NCBI GenBank assembly: GCA_007833815.1
Contig: CP033464.1
Coordinates: 3,280,001-3,344,000, forward strand
DNA from: Brevibacillus laterosporus
Lineage (GTDB): Bacteria; Bacillota; Bacilli; Brevibacillales; Brevibacillaceae
Length of the DNA: 64,000 nt
Direction: 5' to 3'
In this document: positions 45,274 to 49,902 of the stretch, piece after piece
Numbering within the stretch: the first letter of the stretch is position 1
How the letters are laid out: each line of letters opens with the position of its first letter
The notes under the pieces: generated by a model
The model's input: only the letters and a program-made list of their open reading frames with translations
Databases searched by the model: none
What the model was told of the DNA's origin: nothing
Program-made: the position numbers and the translations under genes

Positions 45274-45900
45274 TTATTTTACGTGTAGTAATGCCTCAAT
45301 ATCTCCATTTACAATGATATTAATGTGAGATGAAATCTTTTCAATGTCCCATTCCCACCACGCCACATTCAACAAGACTGCAATGATTTCGTCCGAAAAT
45401 CGCTTTTTCAACTCTCTGGAGGGATTACCTCCTGTAATAGTGTAAGGTTGGACGTCTTTTGTTACAACTGATTTGGCCGCAATGATCGCGCCATCTCCAA
45501 TCTTCACCCCTGGCATGATGCAAGCATCCATACCTATCCAAACATCATTTCCAATCACGGTATTTCCTTTAAATGGTAGTTCTTCCAAAGATGGTGTAAA
45601 CCTTTCCCATCCTTGGCCAAAAATGTTGAAGGGATAGGTGGAGAAGCCGTCCATCTTATGATTGGCTCCATTCATGATAAACGTTACTCCAGAAGCGATC
45701 GAACAAAATTTTCCTACGATCAGTTGGTCGCCATGCATTTCATAATGGTGTAATACTTGATCTTCAAACTCTCCGTTTCGGCAGTCGTAGTACGAATAGT
45801 CCCCAACGATAATATTCGGTTTGGTGATGGTATTCTTAATAAACTGTAAGCCTTGGTATCCCTCCATCGGATATCTTACATTCGGATTCGGTCCTGTCAA
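45274..45900 (-). CDS. vat: Vat-family streptogramin A acetyltransferase
   Basis: A 208-residue xenobiotic acetyltransferase with a left-handed beta-helix. It acetylates group A streptogramins and so blocks their binding to the 50S ribosome. Seen: L-Q-F-I-K-N-T-I-T, D-Y-S-Y-Y-D, F-E-D-Q-V-L-H-H-Y-E, F-C-S-I-A-S-G-V-T-F-I-M-N-G-A-N-H (with the catalytic His), I-G-N-D-V-W-I-G-M-D-A-C-I-M-P-G-V-K-I-G, and G-G-N-P. These follow the Vat pattern closely and are longer matches than to general CatB-like enzymes. The start is TTG at 45900 with AAGGAG 10 bases ahead. Its leader carries two terminators (see 45900-46229). Confidence 0.9.
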   Translation of the reverse strand: MTGPNPNVRYPMEGYQGLQFIKNTITKPNIIVGDYSYYDCRNGEFEDQVLHHYEMHGDQLIVGKFCSIASGVTFIMNGANHKMDGFSTYPFNIFGQGWERFTPSLEELPFKGNTVIGNDVWIGMDACIMPGVKIGDGAIIAAKSVVTKDVQPYTITGGNPSRELKKRFSDEIIAVLLNVAWWEWDIEKISSHINIIVNGDIEALLHVK

Positions 45901-45929
45901 TGTTATCCACTCCTTTATGACTCATGGTT

Positions 45930-45973
45930 AATAGACTAAAAATGTTATAGAGGACGAGAAGAGATTGTCTATT
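45930..45973 (-). promoter_or_regulatory. Stem just before vat RBS
   Basis: AATAGAC (45930-45936) pairs with GTCTATT (45967-45973). It follows the second leader terminator and precedes the ribosome site; it could take part in an alternative fold. Confidence 0.4.
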
Positions 45974-45982
45974 TTAAGCAAC

Positions 45983-46016
45983 AAAAAACCTCCTTATCCA
46001 CTTTCAGGATAGGAGG
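45983..46016 (-). terminator. Leader terminator 2 of vat
   Basis: On the minus strand CCTCCTATCC pairs with GGATAAGGAGG (one bulge) around a 7-base loop, then six T. It lies upstream of vat, not after a gene, so it is an attenuator candidate. Confidence 0.75.
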
Positions 46017-46023
46017 AGGCAGA

Positions 46024-46080
46024 CTAATAAAGAACGGAAATAACATCCCTCATAAAGGCAGTAATTACTCCATTACTCAT
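46024..46080 (-). CDS. Possible 18-codon leader peptide of vat
   Basis: ATG at 46080, stop TAG at 46026-46024. It begins right after leader terminator 1 and ends 8 bases before the 5' arm of terminator 2, so a ribosome held at its end would mask that arm. No good ribosome site is seen before the ATG, which lowers confidence. Confidence 0.35.
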   Translation of the reverse strand: MSNGVITAFMRDVISVLY

Positions 46081-46084
46081 ATGT

Positions 46085-46172
46085 AAAAAAGCCCGAACTA
46101 ATCCTATTCAGAAAGTGTTTCGTATCGTACGAAATTTTCATTGAAATAGAATTAGTAGATCATTGGCTTTTT
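46085..46172 (-). terminator. Leader terminator 1 of vat
   Basis: On the minus strand a long interrupted stem: AAAAAGCC with GGCTTTTT-type ends (46165-46172 with 46086-46093), ACTAATTCTATT with AATAGGATTAGT (46145-46156 with 46098-46109), and an inner TTTCGT/ACGAAA (46118-46133). Six T follow the 3' arm. It lies about 30 bases after the promoter. Confidence 0.7.
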
Positions 46173-46178
46173 GTTCAC
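46152..46178 (-). CDS. Possible 8-codon leader ORF of vat
   Basis: GTG at 46178 to TAA at 46154-46152 encodes M-N-K-K-P-M-I-Y; a nested ATG gives M-I-Y. GAAAGG abuts the GTG and is about 11 bases from the nested ATG. The frame overlaps the 5' arm of leader terminator 1. Confidence 0.35.
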   Translation of the reverse strand: MNKKPMIY

Positions 46179-46199
46179 CCTTTCGATTTTGCTTACTTC

Positions 46200-46229
46200 A
46201 ATATAGATGTGAAGATGTGAAACTGTCAA
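46200..46229 (-). promoter_or_regulatory. vat promoter
   Basis: On the minus strand TTGACA (46229-46224) and TATATT (46205-46200) are 18 bases apart. This sets a leader of about 290 bases before vat. Confidence 0.65.

Positions 46230-46291: not shown

Positions 46292-49902
<3,611 letters not shown>

Follow-up and report, generated by a model that had tools for sequence, protein, structure and literature searches.

The vat locus and its leader

A streptogramin A resistance gene of Brevibacillus laterosporus lies behind a leader with two hairpins and several short open frames, which raises the question of whether its transcription is attenuated by a drug-stalled ribosome and, if so, by how many sensors. 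A sequence-only reading of the locus had proposed that two independent attenuator modules follow one another, with a separate frame and terminator in each. The comparisons described here suggest instead a vmlR-type transcription attenuator that is ribosome-mediated and has a single sensor, a reading to which we assign a probability of about 0.82. All positions refer to the window, the whole stretch of 64,000 nucleotides that was analyzed, and vat and its leader lie on the minus strand.

The gene at 45900-45274, which begins with TTG, is a genuine Vat acetyltransferase: it exceeds the curated cut-off of the streptogramin A O-acetyltransferase model NF000311 (342 versus 300 bits), and the best PDB match of its product is VatA. 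The promoter proposed upstream of it is present at 46229-46200 (TTGACA-18-TATATT, 11 of 12 consensus matches). Its hexamers are retained in two leaders from congeners, L002 and L003, and in L026 from Paenibacillus apiarius, and are partly altered in a third congener, L005. Directly upstream of the leader, 46292-49432 encodes a long collagen-like protein with many Gly-X-Y repeats (SclB-type model, 382 bits, cut-off 325; NTTRR-F1 domain, 201 bits, cut-off 70), and this gene ends with its own stable hairpin and U run (z -5.4).

Over 237-279 bases, the leaders of the three congeners are 79-80% identical to that of the window, and the same kind of leader precedes vat in P. apiarius. A vat match covering all or a large part of the gene was found in five of the six genomes of the genus; four of these five have the leader (the window's genome, G003, G004 and G005) and G001 is without it. 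Besides the promoter, the parts kept in the congeners and in P. apiarius are the ribosome site GAAAGGG, a tripeptide frame and both hairpins, but not the 18-codon frame that had been put forward as a second sensor. For wider searches, we built a covariance model of the hairpin 1 module, R1, from ten leaders (the window, L002, L003, L005, L026, L154, L157, L162, L166 and L173).

A single conserved frame as the probable sensor

The proposed overlap of a short frame with the 5' arm of the first hairpin is borne out by comparison. The frame ATG ATC TAC TAA (46163-46152) reads Met-Ile-Tyr in the window and in L026 and Met-Ile-Asn in L002 and L003. Its ribosome site GAAAGGG (46184-46178) lies 14 bases before the AUG, and GAAAGG is invariant in all ten leaders of R1. 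In L112, a vmlR-type leader, AGAAGGG occupies the same place, also 14 bases before the AUG, and this eases the earlier doubt over weak ribosome sites as far as the tripeptide is concerned. The ribosome site of Bacillus subtilis vmlR was confirmed by toeprint and mutation (PMC9226507). The window leader shares with vmlR-type attenuators a tripeptide frame with its ribosome site inside the first hairpin. Among 55 additional leaders found with R1, a Met-X-X-stop frame could be read by eye in 53 (the exceptions are L195 and L222), a count that follows partly from the construction of the model.

A longer GTG frame (46178-46152), in which the tripeptide is nested, is open in the window. It was rejected as the sensor because it is out of frame or interrupted in some relatives (L173, L219), the nested ATG tripeptide being the part that is kept. 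In L005 (genome G003), the stop codon of the tripeptide frame is gone and the vat match is interrupted by stops; gene and sensor seem to be decaying together.

The 18-codon frame (46080-46024) is open in the window, which together with the presence of two hairpins with U runs speaks for two modules in series. Its start codon, however, is absent at that place in L002, L003, L005 and L026, and the 18-codon frame was rejected as a second sensor; the tripeptide is the only conserved frame. The 18-codon frame starts five bases past the U run of hairpin 1 and has no visible ribosome site. Two independent modules are also opposed by the correspondence of both hairpins to parts of one vmlR-type module, SL-1 and SL-3, and by the antiterminator strands that they share, and we regard this arrangement as very improbable.

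Two hairpins, probably of one module

Both hairpins ending in U runs are present as described earlier, at 46172-46085 and 46019-45983. Hairpin 1 has a z of -6.9, with none of 200 shuffles as stable, and for hairpin 2 the segment 46020-45975 has a z of -3.1, with one of 200 shuffles as stable. In the B. subtilis vmlR leader, which has been studied experimentally, a uORF encoding Met-Ile-Asn lies within SL-1, SL-1 acts as anti-antiterminator and SL-3 as terminator (PMC9226507). On the same logic, we assign hairpin 1 the role of a putative anti-antiterminator and hairpin 2 that of the predicted terminator. Hairpin 2 is retained in L002, L003, L005 and L026, and comparison supports its proposed role as a terminator. 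The idea of ribosome-mediated attenuation of vat gains support from comparison, but the two hairpins are better explained as anti-antiterminator and terminator of one module rather than as tandem terminators.

The outer stem of hairpin 1 is paired in 94.7% of cells over the ten leaders, in which double changes are absent and pairing does not exceed that of shuffles. An unpaired stretch lies close to the base of this hairpin. A middle hairpin (46071-46036) stands in place of vmlR SL-2 and is weak in three of four leaders (z -1.3 in the window, -1.4 in L026 and -1.6 in L003), while it is strong in L002 (z -6.9).

A simple consensus terminator scan flagged neither hairpin 1 nor hairpin 2 on this strand. 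This speaks for a leader that does not sense drugs at all, with conserved hairpins that only limit vat expression or are a decayed remnant. Against such a reading, the frame, the hairpins and the antiterminator pairing are conserved across several families, and L005, in which the frame has lost its stop, comes from a genome with a broken vat. We hold the absence of drug sensing to be very improbable. A riboswitch was also considered and rejected: the only match at Rfam gathering level in the window is a SAM riboswitch elsewhere (RF00162, 90.9 bits, 60098-59991, minus strand), and the permissive matches in the leader other than the one to RF02452 discussed below have E values of at least 1.2.

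A predicted antiterminator joining the two hairpins

Folding and covariation add to the earlier description a predicted antiterminator helix, in which sequence from the 3' half of hairpin 1 pairs with that of the 5' arm and loop of hairpin 2. Its 5' strand would be CACTTTCTGAATAGGA (46117-46102) and its 3' strand TCCTATCCTGAAAGTG (46014-45999). A stalled ribosome was modeled as a mask spanning -18 to +15 relative to the A of the AUG, with the RNA cut before the 3' arm of hairpin 2. Under these settings, the window leader has 15.3 expected antiterminator pairs with the mask and 0.1 without. All 12 masked leaders upstream of vat (5), vgb (2), Vga-like (3) and MFS (2) genes have 13-17 expected pairs, compared with about 9 in two leaders of the RF02452 type. 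Shuffled hairpin 2 regions reach the observed pairing in 1 of 100 cases for the window and in 0-7 of 100 over 14 leaders.

With hairpin 2 incomplete and no ribosome present, the antiterminator already forms in L002 (15.9 pairs) and L005 (15.8) and forms partly in L003 (5.2) and L173 (4.4). At equilibrium of the full leader, hairpin 2 beats the antiterminator in the window, L026, L162 and L159, and therefore the order of folding during transcription must matter. In vmlR-type attenuators, the antiterminator is mutually exclusive with the first hairpin and with the terminator; for the window leader, such a helix is indicated by folding and covariation only, and it does not win at equilibrium.

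Covariation was examined in 66 leaders, 55 of which have both motifs and 49 of these are distinct, with kinship among leaders uncontrolled. The 11-base core of the antiterminator has a mean of 10.3 standard pairs in the 49 leaders, compared with 7.7 for shuffled partners (200 shuffles, highest mean 8.0); the window has 9 of 11. Pair types differ on both strands, being C-G (29 leaders) and T-A (4) at position 2, T-A (31) and A-T (5) at position 3, G-C (36) and A-T (6) at position 5, and T-G (30), T-A (17) and C-G (2) at position 7. When partners were swapped between leaders, again with kinship uncontrolled, the true partners paired better than in any of 5000 permutations among 48 distinct leaders, and 24 of 5000 permutations did as well within the 12 vat, vgb, Vga-like and MFS leaders. 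For most vmlR-type leaders, and for L157, L162 and L168, this test shows no advantage of the true partner over many others.

The 55 additional leaders are those from the R1 searches that are absent from the RF02452 list, with L180, a repeat of L162, left out; many of those from Brevibacillus are near relatives of one another. Hairpin 2 is detectable in 50 of them. At least 8 antiterminator pairs are expected in 45 of these 50 with the mask and in 15 without it, and in 43 at most one of 20 shuffles does as well. A version of this test based on a narrow motif was usable for 22 of the 55 leaders, of which 18 had 8 or more expected pairs when masked and 6 when unmasked; it was superseded by positions taken from the model match.

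Taken together, sensor, antiterminator and hairpins would work as follows. In the absence of drug, a ribosome would quit the three-codon frame at once, hairpin 1 would fold and hide its own 3' half, hairpin 2 would then fold, and transcription would end short of vat, and might end as early as hairpin 1. Drugs that inhibit the peptidyl transferase (streptogramin A, lincosamide or pleuromutilin) would hold the ribosome at the AUG. As the stalled ribosome would cover the 5' arm of hairpin 1, the 3' half would be free to pair with the emerging 5' arm of hairpin 2, and polymerase would continue into vat. A single stalled ribosome would in this way disarm both hairpins. The arrangement ahead of vat would accordingly comprise one sensor, one antiterminator, one likely terminator and one possible terminator.

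Hairpin 1 as a possible second terminator

The possible terminator is hairpin 1, whose U run may make it a terminator as well as an anti-antiterminator. In a variant of the single-sensor reading, with odds included in the probability given above, no termination takes place at hairpin 1: the U run there would do no more than pair with the A-rich 5' side, leaving hairpin 2 as the sole gate, as in vmlR. This agrees with the description of vmlR SL-1 as anti-antiterminator and SL-3 as terminator (PMC9226507), with the unpaired stretch near the base of hairpin 1, and with the replacement of its U run by GCATATTGG in 19 of the 50 additional leaders, all of them MFS leaders of Brevibacillaceae. On the other hand, GGCTTTT closes hairpin 1 in all ten leaders, even in L026, whose 5' side has few A, and at least four T are kept at the end of hairpin 1 in all 7 vat and all 8 vgb leaders (counted by eye). 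We give this variant slightly less than an even chance.

Since vat and vgb leaders keep the T run while 19 of 50 additional leaders have GCATATTGG, the anti-antiterminator role of hairpin 1 is the common denominator of these leaders. A second termination point at hairpin 1 is an add-on that is plausible but unproven, and it is all that remains of the tandem idea in the sequence-only reading.

Relation to RF02452 and distribution among vat loci

A permissive Rfam search of 431 leader bases returned RF02452 ("Bacillus sRNA ncr1575") with 36.6 bits and an E value of 6.8e-4, and the match spans the whole model (positions 1-212 of 212). Because the gathering score of 60 bits was not reached by the window, nor by L002 (48.4) or L003 (48.3), the leader is not filed as a member of this family. 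At E 0.5, RF02452 was not matched by L005, L026, L062 or L004.

Of 399 Bacilli genomes, 57 have an RF02452 match at E 0.001, and 39 of these exceed the cut-off. The genes downstream are mostly ABC-F ribosome protection genes, and the best-scoring match, L112, precedes a gene whose product matches the solved B. subtilis ExpZ (950 bits), which we take to be VmlR. These two observations are the reason for regarding RF02452 matches as, as a rule, leaders of the vmlR type. The family, typed as an sRNA, looks like a family of cis-acting leaders.

With the training genomes counted, 72 of the 399 Bacilli genomes have an R1 match at E 0.01. R1 finds vmlR-type leaders outside its training set (L112-L114, 37.6-39.3 bits) and leaders before vgb in four vgb-vat loci of Oceanobacillus. 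Of 80 vat loci, six have an R1 match at E <= 0.01 before vat or before a vgb-vat pair, and the leader is therefore not a general property of vat. The Peribacillus, Metabacillus and Neobacillus loci of this set, and L004 from the same genus as the window (G001), have no R1 match at this threshold. A Clostridia vat locus, L062, has a Met-Ile-Met-stop frame upstream (seen by eye) and two hairpins, and gave no R1 match at E 1.

Genes behind related leaders

We surveyed the genes downstream of 121 distinct places matched in the RF02452 and R1 searches, assigned by best similarity of the chosen downstream frame, with the vat leaders of the genus and matches on the strand opposite a leader left out. 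ABC-F genes account for 38 VmlR-like, 13 Lsa-like and 14 Vga-like cases (a few at only 32-39% identity). The others are 31 members of one MFS family, 8 Vgb, 2 Vat, 1 Lnu and 14 places with no assignment, some of which are probably chance matches. Representatives exceed their cut-offs for Lnu(G) (622 bits, cut-off 525), Lsa (L174, 810 bits, cut-off 750), Vga (L225, 794 bits, cut-off 725; L154, with 689, is below it) and Vat (L206 and L219, 351 and 320 bits, cut-off 300). The Vgb representative has 389 bits, under the strict Vgb(B) cut-off of 600, and the MFS representative is MFS_1 in Pfam.

The MFS family (L203, 1713-2936, and 30 related places), which lies downstream of such leaders in many Brevibacillaceae as well as in other Bacilli, is a candidate exporter of peptidyl-transferase drugs. 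The lincosamide nucleotidyltransferase gene lnu(G) is preceded by an RF02452 leader, L120 (G201:C2:66682-66904), whose frame reads Met-Lys-Asn. A second leader in the window's own genome, of the RF02452 type, precedes the Lsa-family gene L174. There (L107/L174, C4:3698466-3698682) and in L106, an RF02452 leader with a Met-Ile-Asn frame lies between genes for a Cfr-type 23S rRNA methyltransferase and a Lsa-family ABC-F protein; the Cfr-type gene scores 615 bits in L106 (cut-off 550) and is a shorter open frame in the window's genome.

A broader reading, offered tentatively and at somewhat less than even odds, combines these distributions with the U run of hairpin 1. The leader would be a widespread, gene-independent cassette that senses peptidyl-transferase drugs and serves no fewer than six kinds of genes for resistance or export (vmlR-like, vga-like and lsa-like ABC-F genes, vgb, vat, lnu(G) and one MFS family), and in its vat/vgb branch the anti-antiterminator would itself have turned into a terminator, so that one stalled ribosome opens two serial gates.

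If the single-sensor reading is true, vat, the gene of a drug-modifying enzyme, would be inducible by the drug class that its product acts on, through a tripeptide sensor described for ABC-F genes. An Rfam sRNA entry would likewise become a class of cis-acting leaders that predicts drug-responsive genes, including one family of MFS transporters.

Comparison with known attenuators

A search of the open-licence PMC literature found no report of vat regulation by attenuation. Very short frames that sense the same drug class and act by premature termination are described for the cplR leader of Clostridioides difficile (PMC10201436) and the lmo0919/vgaL leader of Listeria (PMC11550727). The frame in cplR is MR[I/M], and the stem of the terminator there has the further effect of sequestering the gene's ribosome site (PMC10201436). 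Both are ABC-F genes, unlike vat, and their likeness to the window leader is one of description. Attenuators of the ermK and msr(D) type sense macrolides through different and longer leader peptides, and their sensor, unlike that of the window, is not a tripeptide frame. They resemble the mode proposed here in that a drug-stalled ribosome on the leader frame permits read-through (PMC5418344).

The closest likeness is to the B. subtilis vmlR leader, with which the window leader shares the distance of the ribosome site, the tripeptide inside hairpin 1 and the order of anti-antiterminator, antiterminator and terminator. The two differ in that the window gene, vat, encodes an enzyme whereas vmlR encodes an ABC-F protein, and the sensor reads Met-Ile-Tyr instead of Met-Ile-Asn. 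A U run is present on hairpin 1 of the window leader, the predicted antiterminator is longer, and the match to the RF02452 model stays under the Rfam gathering score.
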